This document shows positions 2,822 to 41,719 of a stretch of DNA of 44,813 bases, one piece after another. Every line of letters starts with the position of its first letter. Position 1 is the stretch's first letter. The notes under the pieces are model-generated. The model was not told where the DNA came from, ran no database searches, and worked only from the letters and a program-made list of their open reading frames with translations. Made by a program: the position numbers and the translations under genes. Source of the stretch: Acidobacteriota bacterium (lineage in GTDB: Bacteria; Acidobacteriota; Terriglobia; 20CM-2-55-15); the NCBI GenBank assembly GCA_023265365.1, contig JAHFTY010000011.1, positions 1-44,813 of the forward strand, written 5' to 3'.

Positions 2822-2827
2822 TATAAT
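2822..2827 (+). promoter_or_regulatory. -10 box of a leaderless-type promoter
   Basis: TATAAT sits 8 nt before the GTG at 2836, so transcription would begin at or within about two bases of the start codon. No Shine-Dalgarno lies in the gap. No convincing -35 is visible (TTTCCA at 2796-2801 has a 20-nt spacer). Confidence 0.5.
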
Positions 2828-8011: not shown

Positions 8012-8293
8012 GGGCCATGACTTTCAGACTGGACCTGTTCAGGTGGGCTTCGACGGTATGGTGCAAACGGCGATCTGAACCTGACAGGCATCGAACTGTT
8101 CTAGATTCTGTTGCAGCACCGAAGAGATGTTCGGGCCGATAGTGGCCGGTCAGAGCGGCGGCGATTTCAGTTTTGGAGGCGCGGCAGCGGTAATCGCGGT
8201 GCTCGGTGAGTTTTGAGAGCCACCGCCGAAAAAGGCTGCTTCCTGAAAGTGATCGTGCGGTGCCGGGCGGTGTTTGCGTAAACTACAACGGCG
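8012..8293 (+). other. Gene-free stretch with possible protease remnant
   Basis: I see no convincing gene here. One short frame at 8060-8104 reads GANGDLNLTGIELF and stops; it resembles the protease C terminus (TNGVPLVGLELF). It may be debris of another decayed paralogue. A TAAACT at 8279-8284, ten bases before tRNA-Val, is a plausible -10 box for the tRNA. No terminator hairpin was found after the protease. Confidence 0.35.
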
Positions 8294-8366
8294 GGGCAGT
8301 TAGCTCAATTGGAAGAGCATTCGGTTTACACCCGAAAGGTCATAGGTTCGAGCCCTATACTGCCCA
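8294..8366 (+). tRNA. tRNA-Val (anticodon TAC)
   Basis: The 73-nt cloverleaf is complete. The acceptor stem GGGCAGT pairs with ACTGCCC and the discriminator is A. The D arm is GCTC/GAGC. The anticodon stem TTCGG/CCGAA encloses loop TTTACAC, with anticodon TAC at 8327-8329. The T arm ATAGG-TTCGAGC-CCTAT is perfect. The CCA end is not encoded. It decodes GTA and, by wobble, GTG valine codons. Confidence 0.97.
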
Positions 8367-8445
8367 TTCCTCGCGCGGTTCTTCTAATCCTTATAAGACT
8401 TCTCCAGAAATCCCTGACTTTGATCGTGAAGAGGATGGCTCGCTC

Positions 8446-8712
8446 ATGACGACGCGCGAGACGGAACTCGAGCAACGGAACCGTGAACTGGAGGCGGGGC
8501 GGCAGTTTGCGCAGTCGAACATGAAGTATGCCGACCTCTTTGATTTCGCTCCGATCGGTTATGTGAGTCTGGATTCGTCCCGCAGAATCGTCGAGATCAA
8601 CCTCGCCGCAGCGGCTCTGCTTGGTGGTACCGCTCCCCAGTTCATTGGCCGTTCCTTCACGGATTTTGTGAAAAGCGAGGACGAGTCGAACTTCCTCGAT
8701 CACGTTCAGTAG
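8446..8712 (+). CDS. PAS-domain fragment ended by an in-frame amber codon
   Basis: The 88-residue product has a short N-terminal coiled-coil-like stretch (ETELEQRNRELEAG) and the first two thirds of a PAS domain (LFDFAPIGYVSLD, IVEINLAAAALLG, FTDFVKSEDESNFLDHVQ). It stops at TAG 8710-8712. The same frame then continues CSTAGHRMRAELDLVTADG, which reads exactly like the missing end of a PAS domain of sensor kinases. The gene therefore looks interrupted by a nonsense codon, and the sensor output domain is absent. The start is ATG 8446, since the frame upstream runs through the tRNA. It is probably a decayed signalling gene; readthrough is possible but unsupported. Confidence 0.55.
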   Translation: MTTRETELEQRNRELEAGRQFAQSNMKYADLFDFAPIGYVSLDSSRRIVEINLAAAALLGGTAPQFIGRSFTDFVKSEDESNFLDHVQ

Positions 8713-11080: not shown

Positions 11081-11154
11081 CGGGGCCGACGAGACTCGAA
11101 CTCGCGACCTCCTGCGTGACAGGCAGGCGTTCTAACCAACTGAACTACGACCCC
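11081..11154 (-). tRNA. tRNA-Asp (anticodon GTC)
   Basis: On the minus strand the 74-nt cloverleaf has acceptor GGGGTCG/CGGCCCC with one T-G pair and discriminator G. The D arm is GTTC..GAAC, and the anticodon stem CCTGC/GCAGG has loop CTGTCAC. The T arm is GCGAG-TTCGAGT-CTCGT. No CCA is encoded. Confidence 0.97.
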
Positions 11155-11168
11155 AAGGACAAATGGAA

Positions 11169-11197
11169 ATCTTACACGCCGATTCCGGAAGGCACAA
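11169..11197 (-). promoter_or_regulatory. Candidate promoter of tRNA-Asp
   Basis: On the minus strand TTGTGC (11197-11192) and TAAGAT (11174-11169) are separated by 17 nt. The tRNA 5' end follows 14 nt after the -10 box. Both boxes are imperfect. Confidence 0.4.
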
Positions 11198-11247
11198 CAG
11201 GTAATTCCCGGTTCCGGTTCGCAGGGACTGGACCTAATCGACAAGCG

Positions 11248-11281
11248 AAAAAAAAGCGGAGCAGCGTTGGCTGCTCCGCTT
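11248..11281 (-). terminator. Strong intrinsic terminator of the M48 peptidase gene
   Basis: A 12-bp perfect stem AAGCGGAGCAGC / GCTGCTCCGCTT with a 4-nt loop is followed on the minus strand by an uninterrupted run of eight T (complement of 11248-11255, sharing two bases with the stem). It lies 30 nt after the M48 stop. Confidence 0.93.
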
Positions 11282-11310
11282 TGCTTCATGTTGCGATCGG
11301 AGAAAAGCAG

Positions 11311-12426
11311 TTATGGACGGCGTTTCAGAACGGGACGATCGTCGTCTTTCTCCTTCTCCTTGTCCGCGTCATTCTTGTCTTTATCGGCTGTACTATCGTC
11401 CTTTGCATCTTTGGAGTCCTTGGAATCTTTCGCGTCCTTGTCCTTCGGATCATCGCGGGTGGACGTCGTCCGCCTCCGCAGGCTCGGCTTGTTGCTTTCT
11501 TCTTCGGTGGGCCGGCGATTTTCCAGTTGAGCCAGTTGTGTTTTGATTTTGTTGAACTCCGAAGTCGTCACGACGTATTGCTCGCGATCCGGAAGGACCT
11601 TTTCGATGTTGGCCTTTTCCAAGGTAATGCGGTCGCCTGTGAGCGGGTGCGTGCTGAAGAGCTTGTTCATCGTGCCCGGCTTGGCGCTTTCCTTCGCCTG
11701 GAGTTTTTCGAAGAAGCTCACCGCGGCTGTTGGATCATAACCGGTCTTATACATGTACTGGAGTCCGAGGTAGTCGGCTTCGGCTTCGGCTTTGCGGGAG
11801 AAGGAAAGGAACGTGATCGGAACAAGGAGGCCTGTTGCCTGACGGAGACCGAATCCGGCGGGCCCGCCGAGGAAAATCAACGGAATCGACGCAATATTCA
11901 GGAGTTGACCCTTCGATGCGTTTTCCGCACCGTGTCGCGCCGTCACATGGGCGATTTCGTGGGCCATCACGCCGGCAAGTTCCGCTTCATCATCCGCCGC
12001 CATGATCAGGCCGGTGTTCACATAAAAAAAGCCGCCGGGGAGGGCGAACGCGTTGACCTCGTCGGCCTCGACGACTTTGATGGTGAAAGGTACCTTCGCA
12101 TCCGAATTCCGAACGAGATTCTGGCCGACGCGGTTGACGTATTCGTTGATGACGGGGTCGTCCACGAGCTTGACTTCCCGTTCCACCTCAGCCGCAAGTT
12201 CCCGGCCCATCGCAATTTCCTTTTCAAGGGACATGAAATTGATGCTTCCCTTGTTGATGTTGCGATTGCCGATGTTGTCGATATCCGAGTTCTTGGGTTT
12301 CTTGCCGCTGTCCTTAGGCTTTTCTTCCTTTTGCTTGGTGTCCTTCTGTTGGGCAAACCCTACCGAGGTGCACATCAGGCCGGCCAGCGCCAAGGCCAGA
12401 GTGAGTCGGGCGACCTTAAAAATCAT
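11311..12426 (-). CDS. Secreted M48-family zinc metallopeptidase
   Basis: The 371-residue protein has a signal peptide (MIFKVARLTLALALAGLM, cleaved near SVGFAQ). The M48 catalytic motif HEIAHVTARHG has H156, E157 and H160; a third ligand is a Glu in the helix AEAEADYLG near 212. The IYFH-type fold element NTGLI/ALPGGFFYVN precedes it. This suits periplasmic quality control of outer-membrane proteins, as in BepA/YfgC, but the C-terminal TPRs are missing. The tail (~305-371) is a highly charged Lys/Asp tract (KDSKDSKDAKDD). The ATG at 12426 has GGAG about 8 nt upstream; an earlier ATG (12444) lacks that. It is a monocistronic unit with a strong terminator. Confidence 0.9.
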   Translation of the reverse strand: MIFKVARLTLALALAGLMCTSVGFAQQKDTKQKEEKPKDSGKKPKNSDIDNIGNRNINKGSINFMSLEKEIAMGRELAAEVEREVKLVDDPVINEYVNRVGQNLVRNSDAKVPFTIKVVEADEVNAFALPGGFFYVNTGLIMAADDEAELAGVMAHEIAHVTARHGAENASKGQLLNIASIPLIFLGGPAGFGLRQATGLLVPITFLSFSRKAEAEADYLGLQYMYKTGYDPTAAVSFFEKLQAKESAKPGTMNKLFSTHPLTGDRITLEKANIEKVLPDREQYVVTTSEFNKIKTQLAQLENRRPTEEESNKPSLRRRTTSTRDDPKDKDAKDSKDSKDAKDDSTADKDKNDADKEKEKDDDRPVLKRRP

Positions 12427-12551
12427 TGGTATTCTCCGATGCAAGTTGGTTCATCGTACGGGCCATCGTCTGATACGTCAAGGGCTTTGACGGCATCGTC
12501 CACGAATGGTTTGACCTTTATTCATCGCTTTCGGAGCATTCAAAAGCCCAA

Positions 12552-13268
12552 TCAAACGGAGGCCACCGGAAGGGTCACGATGTCGTCGACAGCCATCACC
12601 TCTTTCACCACAAACGGCTCCGCATAGTCGACGCCCATCAGATGTCCGTAGTACTTGCACTGCGTGGTCACGCGGTCGAGCAGGCGGCCCCATGCCGGAT
12701 AGAGTTCGGTGATGTCTTTCATGTCCCCTGAGAACTGTGAAGCGAAACAATTAATCGCATCCAGCTTCCGGGGAAAGTGAGCGGAGATATCAACCAAAAA
12801 TGAAGGTTTAACATCCCAATACATTGACGCATAAAGGACTTTACTTGGGCGATGCGGTTGGCCGGCTACCGGAAGCTGCTTGAGTCCGGCGGCATAGCAC
12901 GCTTCATATCCGATCGTCGCGGCGGTGTAGTGATCGGGATGCCGGGCTTCCCAGTAAGGCAGAATGACGGTTTTGGGCCGGGCCTTTCGAATCTGTTCGG
13001 CGACGGCGTACCTGTTTTCGATGGACGAAATCAGCCGGGAATCGCCGAGATTCATCCGCTCCCGGAACTTCGCCCCGATCACGGCCCGGGCGGCCTCCGC
13101 CTCCTGGGCGCGAAGTTCGGGGGTCCCCCGGGTACCCATTTCTCCCTGCGTGAGGTCCAGGATGCCAACCGAGTAGCCCTGGGCCACCATCCGCAGCAGG
13201 GTACCGGAACAGGTCAGTTCAATGTCGTCCGGGTGTGCGGCAATCGTCAGAATGTCTACTTGTTCCAC
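12552..13268 (-). CDS. bshB1: PIG-L/LmbE-family deacetylase, bacillithiol biosynthesis type
   Basis: The 238-residue enzyme belongs to the zinc-dependent GlcNAc deacetylases: AHPDD at 11-15 gives metal ligands and catalytic Asp, and HPDHYTA near 110 gives the third His. GEMGTRGTPELRAQE and the C-terminal YAEPFVVKE segment are characteristic of BshB1, which removes acetyl from GlcNAc-malate in bacillithiol synthesis. GTG 13268 is chosen: an AAGGTGA site lies about 8 nt upstream, and the family begins at VDILTIAAHPDD. The start overlaps the glutaredoxin-like gene by 13 bp. bshA and bshC are not in the window, so assignment to bacillithiol rests on family resemblance. Confidence 0.83.
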   Translation of the reverse strand: MEQVDILTIAAHPDDIELTCSGTLLRMVAQGYSVGILDLTQGEMGTRGTPELRAQEAEAARAVIGAKFRERMNLGDSRLISSIENRYAVAEQIRKARPKTVILPYWEARHPDHYTAATIGYEACYAAGLKQLPVAGQPHRPSKVLYASMYWDVKPSFLVDISAHFPRKLDAINCFASQFSGDMKDITELYPAWGRLLDRVTTQCKYYGHLMGVDYAEPFVVKEVMAVDDIVTLPVASV

Positions 13269-13513
13269 AGGCGCTTCACCTTTTTTTCGAACTCGGCCTC
13301 CTCGACGCGGTATTTGAAGGCCTTGTTCCCGTTGATTGTGATGACAGGAATCTCCATGCCATAGGCGGATTCGAGTGCGGGATCGGCCTCCACATTGACG
13401 ACGCTCAGGACAAATGGATACCGTCGCCGCACTCTTTCGATGACGTCTTTCGCCTCGTCGCAAAGATGGCAGCCGGGTCTGGAGTAGATGTCAACGTGAA
13501 TGGGATCCGACAT
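13256..13513 (-). CDS. Glutaredoxin-like thiol-disulfide protein
   Basis: The 85-residue protein has a thioredoxin fold with the CHLC active site (C15 and C18) in YSRPGCHLCDEAK and the cis-Pro segment IPVITING. It fits the DUF836/glutaredoxin-like group. It overlaps ribF by 23 bp at its start and the bshB1 start by 13 bp at its end, so the three genes form a compact minus-strand operon. The position beside a bacillithiol-type deacetylase suggests a bacillithiol-linked redox role, but this is inference; the CxxC type alone does not decide the partner thiol. Confidence 0.85.
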   Translation of the reverse strand: MSDPIHVDIYSRPGCHLCDEAKDVIERVRRRYPFVLSVVNVEADPALESAYGMEIPVITINGNKAFKYRVEEAEFEKKVKRLWNK

Positions 13514-14441
13514 TGGCGAATGTGCTGAGACGTCTCAGGAATCGTTGGGTATTGCAGACGTCCGCCGTGATCTGGCGGCGCAGGGCTTCGGGCGATTCGA
13601 ACTTCATTTCATCGCGAAGGCGTTTGATGCATCGAAGACGTGCGGAAACGACGCAGTCGGGGACGGGGTCGTTCAGCACAAACGTCTCGACCGTGATCGT
13701 GGATCCTGCAAACGTCGGCCGAACCCCGATGTTCGTCACCGAGTGCAGGAAAGGGCCGCCGTCGAGCGATATGCGTGTAATGTAGACGCCCCTGGCGGGA
13801 AGCAGTTCATTCTCGGGTTGAAGATTCAGCGTCGGGACCGTGACGTTGCGTCCGCGTCCTGCGCCGGAAACGATGGTGCCCTCCAGTTCGGGCCAGCGGC
13901 CGAGAAGCCGGCAGACTTTTGAAACAGCGCCGGTCGCAATGAGATCTCGAACTCGCGTGCTGCTGACGGGAATGCCGCGAACCTCGACGGGCGGAACCTC
14001 GATCACGTCGAGGCCGCCGTGGTCCCTCAGCGTCTGGACGCTGCCGCCACCGCGATATCCGAAATTGAAATTGCTTCCGACACAAACCATCCGGGCGGCA
14101 AGTCCGCGGATCAGGTATTGATCGATAAAGCTGTCCGGAGAGAGCCGGGAAAACGACTCGTCGAAATTCATCACAAAGAGAAGATCGACTCCGGTCTGCT
14201 CAATCAGGCGGATCTTCTGGTGTAACGTGCTGATCAGAAGCGGAGCTTTGTAGGGTGCGAGAAAGCGAATGGGATGCGGCGAAAACGTCATCGCGACGGA
14301 GCGGCACTGCAACTCCTGCGCGCGGCTCACCACGGTATCAAGGATGGCCCGGTGGCCCCGGTGGAGACCGTCAAAGTTTCCGATGCTGACAACGGAACGC
14401 TCCGCCGGCACCGCATCGGTGAGTGACGTTATGACTCGCAT
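13491..14441 (-). CDS. ribF: Bifunctional riboflavin kinase / FAD synthetase
   Basis: The 316-residue enzyme turns riboflavin into FMN and then FAD. The N-terminal FAD synthetase half has the nucleotidyl-transferase motif SIGNFDGLHRGH (18-29), FSPHP and the SSTRVRDLI signature. The C-terminal flavokinase half has GRGRNVTVPTLNL, the PARGVYI strand and TNIGVRPTF. Length is normal. The gene begins at ATG 14441 with no Shine-Dalgarno; a TAAATT box lies 8 nt upstream, so a leaderless mRNA is likely. It is divergent from mazG with only 42 bp between them, and heads the operon with the glutaredoxin-like gene and bshB1. Confidence 0.95.
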   Translation of the reverse strand: MRVITSLTDAVPAERSVVSIGNFDGLHRGHRAILDTVVSRAQELQCRSVAMTFSPHPIRFLAPYKAPLLISTLHQKIRLIEQTGVDLLFVMNFDESFSRLSPDSFIDQYLIRGLAARMVCVGSNFNFGYRGGGSVQTLRDHGGLDVIEVPPVEVRGIPVSSTRVRDLIATGAVSKVCRLLGRWPELEGTIVSGAGRGRNVTVPTLNLQPENELLPARGVYITRISLDGGPFLHSVTNIGVRPTFAGSTITVETFVLNDPVPDCVVSARLRCIKRLRDEMKFESPEALRRQITADVCNTQRFLRRLSTFANVGSHSR

Positions 14442-14449
14442 CTAGTCCG

Positions 14450-14455
14450 AATTTA
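14450..14455 (-). promoter_or_regulatory. Candidate leaderless -10 box of ribF
   Basis: TAAATT on the minus strand ends 8 nt before the ribF ATG, with no ribosome site between. It shares the 42-bp intergenic region with the divergent mazG promoter. Confidence 0.4.
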
Positions 14456-14471
14456 ACACATTAAATCCCGC

Positions 14472-14477
14472 TATAAT
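14472..14477 (+). promoter_or_regulatory. Leaderless -10 box of the mazG operon
   Basis: Perfect TATAAT is followed by 6 nt (TCGTCC) and then the mazG ATG at 14484. The normal distance from -10 to start of transcription would place +1 on the A of ATG. There is no Shine-Dalgarno. TTAACA at 14453-14458 could be a -35 but is only 13 nt away. Confidence 0.6.
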
Positions 14478-14483
14478 TCGTCC

Positions 14484-15314
14484 ATGGCCGATGACACGAC
14501 GGGAAAACGGTTCGAAAAGCTGGTGGAGATCATGACCACGCTGCGTGGTCCCGACGGCTGTCCCTGGGACAAGGAGCAGGACTTCAATACCCTGAAACCC
14601 ATGCTCGTCGAGGAAGTGTACGAGGTCCTTGAAGCGATCGACATCGAGGACTGGGATGGCGTTTCCGAAGAACTGGGCGACCTTCTTCTTCACATCGTTT
14701 TTCAGGCGCAACTCGGAAAAGAGAACGGCCGTTTCAATATCGACACCGTGATCCAGAAGATCTGCGACAAGCTGATCCGCCGCCACCCCCACGTGTTCGG
14801 TAACGAAGAAGCGGGCACTTCCCAACAGGTCATCAGGAACTGGGAAGCCATCAAGGCGCAGGAGAAAGCCGAAAAACTGAACAGCCGGACGCCGGAACAG
14901 CGATCGTTGCTCGAAGGTATCCCCAGCAAATTGCCCGCGATCCACGAGGCGCATCAGATCTCGGCACGGGCGGCGCGCGTCGGTTTCGACTGGCCGGACG
15001 TGGAGGGAGTCTTCGAGAAGCTTCAGGAAGAAGTGCTGGAACTGAAGGAAGTCATCGCGGGGAAGGAACCCGGTCCCAAACGAGATCGGCTGGAAGACGA
15101 AATCGGCGACATCTTGTTTGTGATCGTGAACATCGCACGCTATCTCCGGATCGACTCGGAATCGGCGTTGAAGCGGGCAAATCGCAAATTCAAGTCGCGC
15201 TTTCAGTTCATGGAGAACGAACTGGCACGCCAGGGCCGGACCCTCGACGGAACCGGACTGGCGGAAATGGAAGCGCTCTGGCAACAGGCAAAGATCGAGA
15301 CTCCGGGAAAATGA
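14484..15314 (+). CDS. mazG: Nucleoside triphosphate pyrophosphohydrolase MazG
   Basis: The 276-residue two-domain enzyme hydrolyses (d)NTPs to NMP and PPi, acting in nucleotide-pool cleaning. The N-terminal MazG domain shows LRGPDGCPWDKEQ, then metal-binding EEVYEVLEAI and EELGDLLLHIVF. The second domain repeats the fold with LQEEVLELKEVI and DEIGDILFVIVNIARYL, the active EExxE/ExxD pattern. RRHPHVFG is typical of MazG. The ATG is directly downstream of a TATAAT box. It heads a four-gene operon, with a 4-bp ATGA overlap to the GNAT gene; no toxin mazF is nearby. Confidence 0.95.
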   Translation: MADDTTGKRFEKLVEIMTTLRGPDGCPWDKEQDFNTLKPMLVEEVYEVLEAIDIEDWDGVSEELGDLLLHIVFQAQLGKENGRFNIDTVIQKICDKLIRRHPHVFGNEEAGTSQQVIRNWEAIKAQEKAEKLNSRTPEQRSLLEGIPSKLPAIHEAHQISARAARVGFDWPDVEGVFEKLQEEVLELKEVIAGKEPGPKRDRLEDEIGDILFVIVNIARYLRIDSESALKRANRKFKSRFQFMENELARQGRTLDGTGLAEMEALWQQAKIETPGK

Positions 15315-18436: not shown

Positions 18437-19030
18437 TTACACCTTGGACAGGAGGTGCCCGAGTTTTGTTTTCTTGGTCTGGAGATAGTTCTGGGTGCTT
18501 GCGGAGGGTGTGATCTCGATCGGAACACGTTCGGTGACGGTGATGCCGGCCGCTTCCAGCCCGTCGATCTTCCTGGGGTTATTCGACATCAGCCGGACGT
18601 TTTTCACCCCGAAGTGTTCAAGCACGGCGGCACAGAGATCGTAGTTGCGGTGATCCGCTTCGAAGCCGAGCTCGTGATTGGCCTCGACCGTATCGTGACC
18701 TTCATCCTGGAGTTCGTACGCGAGCAGTTTGTTCATCAGGCCAATGCCGCGGCCTTCCTGCAGTTGATAGATGAGAATGCCGCTTCCGTTTTCGGCAATG
18801 GTCTGCATGGCGAAGTGAAGCTGGTCGCCGCAGTCGCAGCGGGCGGATCCGAAAACGTCTCCGGTCAGGCACTGGGAGTGGATGCGAACCAATACGGCAG
18901 TATCCTTCGAGGGATCGCCGATGACCAGCGCCAGGACGTTTTCAGTTTTACCGGGAGATTCGAATCCGAAGATCCGGAAGCCGCCGAACTTCGTTGGGAA
19001 GTCCGCATCGGCGACTTTGGTCGCAATCAT
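18437..19030 (-). CDS. ribA: GTP cyclohydrolase II
   Basis: The 197-residue enzyme makes the first riboflavin precursor from GTP. Zinc ligands C54, C65 and C67 lie in SQCLTGDVFGSARCDCG. LQEGRGIGLMNKLLAY supplies the GTP-binding Arg, and LMSNNPRKIDGL is the C-terminal motif. It is the stand-alone cyclohydrolase without the RibB domain. The ATG at 19030 follows a perfect TATAAT by 6 nt with no Shine-Dalgarno, again a leaderless arrangement. The gene stands 12 bp downstream of the unknown secreted gene on the same strand but has its own -10. No FMN riboswitch precedes it. Confidence 0.95.
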   Translation of the reverse strand: MIATKVADADFPTKFGGFRIFGFESPGKTENVLALVIGDPSKDTAVLVRIHSQCLTGDVFGSARCDCGDQLHFAMQTIAENGSGILIYQLQEGRGIGLMNKLLAYELQDEGHDTVEANHELGFEADHRNYDLCAAVLEHFGVKNVRLMSNNPRKIDGLEAAGITVTERVPIEITPSASTQNYLQTKKTKLGHLLSKV

Positions 19031-19036
19031 GGGCGG

Positions 19037-19042
19037 ATTATA
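19037..19042 (-). promoter_or_regulatory. Leaderless -10 box of ribA
   Basis: A perfect TATAAT on the minus strand ends 6 nt before the ribA ATG. It lies between ribA and the stop of the upstream gene (19043), so ribA can be transcribed on its own. Confidence 0.6.
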
Positions 19043-19933
19043 TCACGGCACAAGGATGTCATCCTGAGTACCGAGACGGCCGTCGGGTCCTCTGGAAACC
19101 AGGCGGAACGTGAGTCCCGACGGTTTGTATTCCAGAGGCCGCCCCCAACCGTCCAATCTTACGAGGTCCTTCATGTAATGCGGATGAAGAACATTCGTGA
19201 GTTCCACGATGTCTTTGCCCGGAGGCAGGCTGCCGTCTTCGAGAATGAACCGTTCGATGCCGGCGACGAGTGTCTTCATCGTGGCAATTGTGTCGCGCCG
19301 GCGGCCCTCGTTGAGTGTGGCGACCAGATCGTTGGTGTCCACCCACGATCGATCACCCAGGCGTGCGGCGTCGATGGCCCAGTCTCCGGTTTTTGAATTC
19401 CTTTGAAACCGGAAGCCGAGAGTCACTGACGTTTCGGCAATCGTCCGCTTGTCGTTCTGCGCACTGATGCGTTGGAGCAGAATCTCGCGGGGCACGTGTG
19501 AAGAGAGACCGATTTCCGTCATCCGTTTCCGGACCTGTTCGAATTCGGTCGGATTGACGTGAACTCTTTCGATCGGGCTGGGCTCCCGCGTTGCCGGTGC
19601 GGAACCGGTTTGCGGAGGAATGTTGCCGTGGTAGATCGCGCCGAGCAGTTCCTGCATATTCACCCAGTCCCGGTCGGCCAGGCGAACCGCATCGACAATC
19701 CACTCGCTGCCGGCATCGTCCCTTCTGAACTGAAACGCAAGCGTGACTGTCGTATCCGCCACCGCGGTTTCCGCAGTTTGCTGATCGATTTTCCGGATTT
19801 CGATCGCACCGAGCGGCAGATCCGCGGAAGCAAACGCGGCGATCCGCTTCCGCGCTTCGTTGCGCGATAGTTTGGGTTCGGCGACAGCCGTCGAGACAAG
19901 GCACAGTGTGAGGATCCAGGCGAGGCGGCGCAT
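19043..19933 (-). CDS. Secreted protein with duplicated domain and pseudopilin-like C terminus
   Basis: The 296-residue protein has a signal peptide (1-18, MRRLAWILTLCLVSTAVA). Residues about 28-100 and 136-208 are an internal duplication: RKRIAAF against RKRMTEI, TVTLAFQFRRD against SVTLGFRFQRN, EWIVDAVRLADRDWV against DWAIDAARLGDRSWV. The C terminus (about 213-296) resembles the globular end of type II secretion major pseudopilin GspG: an IVELTNVLHPHYMKDL helix, then DGWGRPLEYK and RGPDGRLGTQDDI, which in GspG binds calcium. The N-terminal pilin helix is absent. The overall function is unknown. ATG 19933 follows TAAACT by 8 nt; an upstream start at 20056 would enter moaD. Confidence 0.65.
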   Translation of the reverse strand: MRRLAWILTLCLVSTAVAEPKLSRNEARKRIAAFASADLPLGAIEIRKIDQQTAETAVADTTVTLAFQFRRDDAGSEWIVDAVRLADRDWVNMQELLGAIYHGNIPPQTGSAPATREPSPIERVHVNPTEFEQVRKRMTEIGLSSHVPREILLQRISAQNDKRTIAETSVTLGFRFQRNSKTGDWAIDAARLGDRSWVDTNDLVATLNEGRRRDTIATMKTLVAGIERFILEDGSLPPGKDIVELTNVLHPHYMKDLVRLDGWGRPLEYKPSGLTFRLVSRGPDGRLGTQDDILVP

Positions 19934-19941
19934 CTCGGGGC

Positions 19942-19962
19942 AGTTTAACACTGTGCTAATAT
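19942..19962. promoter_or_regulatory. Divergent leaderless promoters of moaD and the secreted protein
   Basis: The 37-bp space holds TAATAT (19957-19962, plus strand), 8 nt before the moaD ATG. It also holds TAAACT (minus strand, 19947-19942), 8 nt before the ATG of the divergent gene. Neither side has a Shine-Dalgarno. Confidence 0.5.
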
Positions 19963-19970
19963 CCCAACAA

Positions 19971-20222
19971 ATGAAGGTCCGGTTGCTCTTCTTCGCCTCA
20001 CTCAAGGACATCGTTGGATCGCGCGATTTGCGCCTGGACCTTCCAGCGAACAGCACGGTTGGCGACCTGCTGACTGAACTGGAGAAATCGTATCCGCAAA
20101 TGAAGGCTTACCGGCCCGTGATCCTCACTGCCGTGAACGAAGAGTACGTCGACAAGAGCGCTTCCATTTCCGAAGGCGACGAAATTGCGATCTTCCCGCC
20201 AGTCAGTGGAGGGGCCCGGTGA
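19971..20222 (+). CDS. moaD: Molybdopterin synthase small subunit MoaD
   Basis: The 83-residue beta-grasp protein carries the thiocarboxylate sulfur used to form molybdopterin with MoaE. The typical start MKVRLLFFASLKDIVG and the end EIAIFPPVSGG are present. Unusually, two residues (Ala-Arg) follow the Gly-Gly at 80-81, whereas active MoaD ends in Gly-Gly. The stop overlaps the moaE GTG. Because the GGAGGGG encoding this region is also the moaE ribosome site, a point or frame change here could be constrained. Processing or inactivity must be considered. ATG 19971 is the family start. Confidence 0.9.
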   Translation: MKVRLLFFASLKDIVGSRDLRLDLPANSTVGDLLTELEKSYPQMKAYRPVILTAVNEEYVDKSASISEGDEIAIFPPVSGGAR

Positions 20223-33550: not shown

Positions 33551-33556
33551 ATTTTA
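33551..33556 (-). promoter_or_regulatory. Near-leaderless -10 box of the membrane fusion gene
   Basis: TAAAAT on the minus strand ends 9 nt before TTG 33541. The gap lacks a good Shine-Dalgarno. Confidence 0.45.
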
Positions 33557-40957: not shown

Positions 40958-40963
40958 TAAAAT
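40958..40963 (+). promoter_or_regulatory. Leaderless -10 box of map
   Basis: TAAAAT is followed by exactly 6 nt (GAGCCA) and then ATG 40970, the same spacing as mazG and ribA. No Shine-Dalgarno. Confidence 0.55.
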
Positions 40964-40969
40964 GAGCCA

Positions 40970-41719
40970 ATGATCCATTTGAAGAGCGCTCGTGAAATCG
41001 AGCTGATGAAAGGCGCGAGCAGGATTGTCGCTGAAATCCTGCTGGAGTTGCGGGAACAGGCCAGGCAAGGCATGTCGACGGCCGACCTCGACCGGATCGC
41101 CGAAGACCTTATTCACAAAAAGAAAGCCCGGCCCGCATTCAAGGGCTATCGGGGGTTTCCGGCATGTGTCTGCATATCCATCAACGAGGAAGTCGTTCAT
41201 GGGATTCCCTCATCGAAACGGATACTCAAAAACGGAGACATCGTCGGCCTCGATTTTGGCGTCATCTATGATGGTTACTTTGGCGACGCGGCGTTCACCG
41301 TCGCCATCGGCGAGATTCCGGATCACGTCCGGGACCTTCTGAGGGTGACGGAACAAGCGCTTTACGAAGGGATCAAACAAGCTCTCCCCGGAAATTACAT
41401 TGCCGATATTTCTGCTGCCATACAGAAGGCCGCCGAGGCCCATCATTTCGGAATCGTCCGCGAATTCTGCGGTCACGGTATTGGCCGCGCCCTGCACGAA
41501 GATCCTCCGGTTTTGAATTATGCCGGCAACGGGAAAGGTCCGAAGATCAAACCCGGTCTGGTTCTGGCGATCGAGCCGATGATCAACCTTGGAACTGAAA
41601 AAGTGAAGGTTCTGGATGACGGCTGGACGGTCACAACGCTTGACGGAAAGCCCTCGGCTCACTTTGAGCATACGATCGCCGTCACTCCGGATGGGCCGGA
41701 GATCCTTACCCGAGTGTGA
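40970..41719 (+). CDS. map: Methionine aminopeptidase, type I
   Basis: The 249-residue enzyme removes initiator methionine. Metal ligands are in LDFGVIYDGYFGDAA (two Asp), GHGIGRALHEDP (His), IEPM and FEHTIAV (two Glu). AFKGYRGFPACVCISINEEVVHGIPS is the substrate-side region of type I enzymes (shown here in parts: FKGYRGFPACVCISINEE). The N terminus lacks the zinc-finger extension. It stands alone after a -10 box; the following 87 bp (41720-41806) contain only a weak AATCTC/GAGATT hairpin before the convergent VWA gene. Confidence 0.96.
   Translation: MIHLKSAREIELMKGASRIVAEILLELREQARQGMSTADLDRIAEDLIHKKKARPAFKGYRGFPACVCISINEEVVHGIPSSKRILKNGDIVGLDFGVIYDGYFGDAAFTVAIGEIPDHVRDLLRVTEQALYEGIKQALPGNYIADISAAIQKAAEAHHFGIVREFCGHGIGRALHEDPPVLNYAGNGKGPKIKPGLVLAIEPMINLGTEKVKVLDDGWTVTTLDGKPSAHFEHTIAVTPDGPEILTRV

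Follow-up and report, generated by a model that had tools for sequence, protein, structure and literature searches.

Candidate extended -10 promoters abutting start codons in an uncultivated family of the Acidobacteriota

Leaderless genes have been predicted in all three Acidobacteria genomes considered by Zheng et al. (2011, PMC3160421), where, according to the passages on this phylum, they make up 9.7-19.4% of genes (mean 13.3%). In the same passages a TANNNT element about 12 bp before the start is given as the mark of a leaderless gene. In Deinococcus, -10 boxes that abut open reading frames (ORFs) work as promoters in reporter tests, as described in the relevant part of that study (PMC12340547). 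The bidirectional promoters of E. coli represent a different arrangement; the sections on their geometry describe a pseudo-symmetric element whose divergent starts are commonly separated by 18, 10 or 23 bp (PMC12825309).

The DNA analyzed here (the window, 44,813 nucleotides) is contig 273 of a 362-contig, 4.72 Mb Acidobacteriota MAG. Among named genomes, the nearest relatives of its MazG are found in the Acidobacteria MAGs L011-L014 (75-78% identity, three of the four best being labelled gp5), followed by Candidatus Sulfopaludibacter (72-75% identity) and then by other Acidobacteria. The source is taken as an uncultivated member of the Acidobacteriota. The window also contains two tRNA genes identified by Rfam (8294-8366 on the plus strand and 11081-11154 on the minus strand). 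Because of their overlap with these tRNA genes, the ORFs 8206-8712 and 11116-12627 of the mechanical list are unlikely to be genes as listed.

Several genes of the window have a -10 box directly before the start codon. The reading favored here, with a probability of about 0.85, is that such boxes are -35-independent extended -10 promoters that abut start codons and give leaderless or nearly leaderless mRNA. The promoters would be of the housekeeping-sigma type, with an extended -10 element (TGTGn-TAnaaT) and no recognizable -35 element. Judging from the spacing, RNA polymerase would start on the start codon or a few bases off. The resulting mRNA would have no leader or a leader of a few bases, without a Shine-Dalgarno (SD) site, and its translation would probably rely on direct recognition of the start codon at the 5' end.

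Boxes and genes in the window

The first-pass annotation of the window listed -10 boxes exactly 6 nt before the ATG of mazG, ribA and map and at gaps of 8-9 nt elsewhere. All of the named boxes are present on direct reading, including the three with 6-nt spacing, and Pfam supports the gene labels mazG, ribA, map, moaD, moaE, ribF and Asp-box gene (Table 1). The longer gaps are also right, although the 2836 gene and the fusion gene do not start with ATG. The TTGACA-18-TACAGA sequence claimed for the Asp-box gene lies at the claimed distance, but TACAGA does not fit TANNNT. Six cases are firm, namely mazG, ribA, map, moaD, ribF and the divergent neighbor of moaD. Among the weaker ones, the 2836 gene has no Pfam match and is overlapped by a high-scoring ORF. 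Direct reading found no SD site in front of mazG, ribA, map, moaD or ribF, and at each of these genes the -10 box occupies the SD position. The mazG box is preceded by CGC and so lacks the TGN extension.

Table 1. Candidate boxes, genes and short divergent intergenic regions of the window (gap, nucleotides between box and start codon)
Feature	Position	Strand	Gap	Start codon	Details
mazG -10 box TATAAT	14472-14477	+	6	ATG 14484	direct reading
mazG, nucleotide pyrophosphohydrolase	14484-15314	+			Pfam PF03819, E 6e-39
ribF -10 box TAAATT	14450-14455	-	8	ATG 14441	TGTGT ahead; back to back with mazG box
ribF, FAD synthetase / riboflavin kinase (flavokinase)	13491-14441	-			Pfam PF06574, PF01687
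ribA extended -10 TGATATAAT	19037-19045	-	6	ATG 19030	TATAAT at 19042-19037
ribA, GTP cyclohydrolase II	18437-19030	-			Pfam PF00925, E 2e-64
moaD extended -10 TGTGCTAATAT	19952-19962	+	8	ATG 19971	TAATAT at 19957-19962
moaD, ThiS family	19971-20222	+			Pfam
moaE	20219	+		GTG	directly after moaD; GGAGG site
moaD divergent neighbor, extended -10 TGTTAAACT	19942-19950	-	8	ATG 19933	box TAAACT
map -10 box TAAAAT	40958-40963	+	6	ATG 40970	TGC ahead
map, methionine aminopeptidase M24	40970-41719	+			Pfam PF00557, E 3e-49
2836 gene box TATAAT	2822-2827	+	8	GTG 2836	weaker case
1059-aa fusion gene box TAAAAT	33551-33556	-	9	TTG 33541	TGC ahead; weaker, start codon uncertain
Asp-box gene TTGACA-18-TACAGA		-	8	ATG 23801	Pfam BNR/Asp-box; weaker case
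mazG/ribF intergenic region					42 bp; outward boxes on both sides
moaD/neighbor intergenic region					37 bp; outward boxes on both sides
map/DJ-1 gene intergenic region					62 bp; outward boxes on both sides

Position, architecture and gene context of the boxes

The positional enrichment of TATAAT expected by the first-pass annotation is present genome-wide. TATAATN6ATG occurs at 10 sites compared to one for the reversed pattern, while TATAATN6-9ATG occurs at 50 sites, against 16 for TATAATN18-21ATG (binomial p = 1.7e-5) and four for the reversed pattern. Genes were also called in 1.15 Mb of the genome using a coding-score model blind to upstream motifs, which avoids circularity. Of the resulting 967 genes, 122 at stretch ends were left out, and the ATG tables also exclude genes started by GTG or TTG and genes whose upstream DNA is masked or too short. 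With these motif-blind starts, TANNNT lies above background within a narrow, short distance of the start codon, with a peak at gaps 6-9 and a fall beyond 10. A special role for spacing of exactly 6 nt is rejected, given the breadth of the peak and the variable gaps of orthologues (6-10 for ribA).

Among ATG starts in the 1.15 Mb, a TANNNT box at gap 6-9 precedes 39/203 genes with a divergent upstream gene (background 4.7%), 20/93 genes with a same-strand gene 25-80 bp away (background 3.9%), 11/135 genes with a same-strand gene more than 80 bp away (background 3.4%) and 14/243 operon-internal genes (background 1.4%). The same method applied to E. coli K-12 gives no excess at divergent heads (1/67, background 9.6%), in the 25-80 bp class (3/39, background 7.9%) or in the class above 80 bp (1/75, background 9.5%), and finds the box at 4/91 internal genes (background 3.1%). 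When alternative starts are allowed, the box is found at 129/533 heads and 25/312 internal genes. Shifted windows give a mean of 59 for the heads and 11.4 for the internal genes, so that the excess amounts to 13.1% and 4.3%, respectively; E. coli heads again have no excess (25/216 against a mean of about 47). GTG and TTG starts carry little signal (5/43 divergent heads, background 5.2%). That the starts were called by a home-made program counts against the favored reading.

The candidate boxes favor TAnAAT and are preceded by T-G-T-G-n, the four letters occurring in 38, 45, 45 and 55% of cases. TGN stands ahead of 28/87 candidates compared to 14/106 control TANNNT boxes farther upstream (p = 0.0013). 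A -35 box was also considered and rejected, since the match to TTGACA (mean 2.31) has no excess among the candidates over shifted spacers (2.23-2.43). TGN and the lack of a -35 excess are properties of the candidates as a class and not of every gene.

Alternatively, the boxes might have no promoter function and be chance matches, read selectively in an upstream zone that is richer in AT. The range of elements accepted by the first-pass annotation, which took varied hexamers, varied gaps, GTG and TTG starts and the non-TANNNT TACAGA, speaks for such an origin, and the single weak cases at 2836, 33541 and 23801 could be due to chance. For the class, however, chance is contradicted by the position-specific excess over shifted windows, the contrast with E. 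coli, the extended -10 element and the footprints in relatives, and we consider it exceedingly improbable.

The boxes are enriched at the heads of transcription units, as the first-pass annotation held. ATG-started heads have TANNNT at gap 6-9 in 70/431 cases compared to 14/243 for internal genes (Fisher p = 2.9e-5), so that the genes with this architecture lie mainly at heads as a class. The exception is ribA, which lies 12 bp downstream of a same-strand gene and is thus not a positional head. The 361/431 ATG-started heads without a box count against the favored reading. The first-pass annotation went further: first genes would be leaderless, and internal genes would rely on SD sites with clear GGAGG sequences. 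The moaD-moaE pair, a leaderless-type head followed by a gene with a GGAGG site, fits such a genome-wide division of labor, and TGN-TANNNT at gap 6-9 hardly occurs outside heads (41/533, background 8.1, compared to 2/312 internal genes, background 1.0). However, the excess covers about 13% of heads, and SD-type sites occur at 121/431 heads and 57/243 internal genes (p = 0.20). Heads are therefore not generally leaderless, and SD sites are not reserved for internal genes. Direct reading also found no clear SD site at the internal genes 15311, 17114, 34904 and 35833 of the window, and ribA again departs from the scheme. The GGAGG rule is not confirmed. A strict division of labor is very unlikely.

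Conservation in relatives and across the phylum

The boxes of four housekeeping genes were compared in orthologous loci. At moaD, GTGn-TANNNT lies exactly 8 nt from the ATG in 10/10 family loci (own included). The TGTG columns are kept in 9, 10, 10 and 10 of these 10 loci and the T, A and T of the box in all 10, whereas agreement in columns -45 to -20 does not exceed 7/10. For ribA, TGATATA(A/C)T is found at gap 6-10 in 9/10 family loci (own included); the remaining locus (L200) has no box and is counted against the favored reading. The gene upstream of ribA ends in a TGA stop codon, which is also the TGn of the ribA extended -10; the open frame of this gene spans 104-354 codons in 9/9 loci. 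Its role as a stop codon accounts for part of the conservation of the TGA, but TATA(A/C)T is conserved as well. By eye, ribA loci beyond the family include three with a box (gaps 10, 10 and 6 in L202, L204 and L213), while most of the 20 extra-family loci have no clear box at a comparable distance, and several of these loci consist of long fused frames.

The mazG loci were compared by eye. Among the six closest, TATAAT-N6-ATG is present in four, CATAAT-N6-ATG in one and no box in L012. The more distant L017 has GGAGG before a GTG start and looks SD-led, and the eight distant loci L018-L025 have TANNNT 6-11 nt before the ATG. Both L012 and L017 are counted against the favored reading.

The map box lies at gap 6-8 in 7/10 family loci (own included) and at gap 17 or 24 in the other three, which are likewise counted against; outside the family no comparable box is visible by eye. 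L228 and L229 have a TAGAAT box in common with their relatives, located 24 nt before the map ATG. The distance of this box suggests a change between leaderless and leadered expression within one family.

Variable distances raise the question of whether "leaderless" is more than approximate. The promoters may be real while most transcripts have a leader a few bases long, with translation through weak SD-like or structure-free initiation. If transcription starts about 7 bp past the box, gaps of 8-10 would place the 5' end 1-3 nt before the ATG, orthologue gaps range from 6 to 10 for ribA and from 6 to 24 for map, and a box 24 nt away, as at map of L228 and L229, would give a true leader. On the other hand, the peak at gaps 6-9 with its drop past 10 leaves no room for an SD site, and we regard short leaders as the unlikely alternative to promoters that start on or next to the start codon.

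The excess extends to other members of the phylum to different degrees. In G028, which belongs to another family of the class, the box is found at 18/87 divergent heads (background 5.4%). The signal is weak in G014, a relative within the class (5/49 divergent heads, background 6.7%; head excess 3.8%), and this is counted against the favored reading. Among 99 genomes of the phylum, TATAATN6-9ATG is more frequent than TATAATN18-21ATG in 75, less frequent in 21 and equal in three, with 15/99 genomes at p<0.01 in a comparison that is blurred by AT-rich genomes. The respective counts in G034, G053, G071 and G101 are 162/61, 158/91, 99/44 and 94/46, a strong excess in absolute terms, and from these leaderless use may vary strongly within the phylum.

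Candidate divergent promoter pairs and comparison with known systems

Outward-facing boxes on both sides are found in three short intergenic stretches of the window (Table 1). The box of the DJ-1 gene is well over 10 nt from the called ATG (40907), and the DJ-1 side is therefore not of the leaderless type in the window. By eye, the opposite-strand boxes of the moaD/neighbor and map/DJ-1 pairs are visible in relatives, and a back-to-back arrangement similar to that of mazG/ribF is present in L013 and L014. In the 1.15 Mb, both boxes lie at gap 6-10 in 6/59 short divergent pairs compared to 2-3/59 in control windows. The corresponding counts are 4/32 in G028 (0-2/32 in controls), 0/7 in G014 and 0/8 in E. 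coli. Close TGNTANNNT pairs number two in the outward and one in the inward orientation in the 1.15 Mb. The automatic start calls recover one of the three window pairs as having both boxes, so the caller undercounts pairs. Paired outward promoters were rejected as a genome-wide class, their frequency being only weakly above control.

Two outward -35-less promoters of the leaderless type may lie so close together that one polymerase excludes the other. The divergent regions of 37-62 bp would then act as either/or switches, and the stop-codon promoter of ribA would likewise build leaderless transcription into a gene junction. This extended proposal is speculative and, in our judgment, doubtful.

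If boxes of this kind act as start-codon promoters, the evidence for leaderless expression now includes an uncultivated family of the Acidobacteriota, where four housekeeping genes have footprints among orthologues. Orthologous promoters at differing distances from the ATG (6-24 nt for map and 6-10 nt for ribA) make the passage between leaderless and leadered expression traceable. Additionally, for part of a genome of this kind, neither start-codon annotation nor gene finding based on SD sites will work.

The window resembles the E. coli bidirectional promoters in having two opposed -10 elements within a short region, where binding in one direction should block the other (PMC12825309, sections on promoter geometry). 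Divergent starts there are most often 18 bp apart, whereas the genes here begin 37-62 bp apart; the two boxes are distinct and arranged back to back, with ATG-inferred starts farther apart than in the E. coli type. The -10-motif genes of Deinococcus-Thermus share the box abutting the ORF, which serves there, and probably here, as a promoter for leaderless mRNA; according to the part of that study concerned with them, a -35 element enhances expression and is not needed (PMC12340547). They belong to another phylum, amount to about 30% of ORFs and are reporter-tested. In Mycobacterium tuberculosis (PMC3898074), the passages on the leaderless transcriptome similarly describe a dominant TANNNT, no -35 consensus and coexisting leaderless and SD transcripts, with TGN before 7% of TANNNT boxes compared to 28/87 candidates here. 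The TA-led genes of Zheng et al. (PMC3160421) belong to the same phylum and have the same TANNNT element, at 13.3% of genes in the passages cited compared to an excess of 13.1% of heads here. For the three Acidobacteria genomes these passages go into no detail on an extended -10, footprints or divergent pairs, unlike the present analysis. The phenomenon is already known, and what is new is a well-conserved instance of it in an uncultivated Acidobacteriota family, with two small additions: the TGA upstream of ribA that doubles as an extended -10 and some conserved back-to-back promoter pairs.
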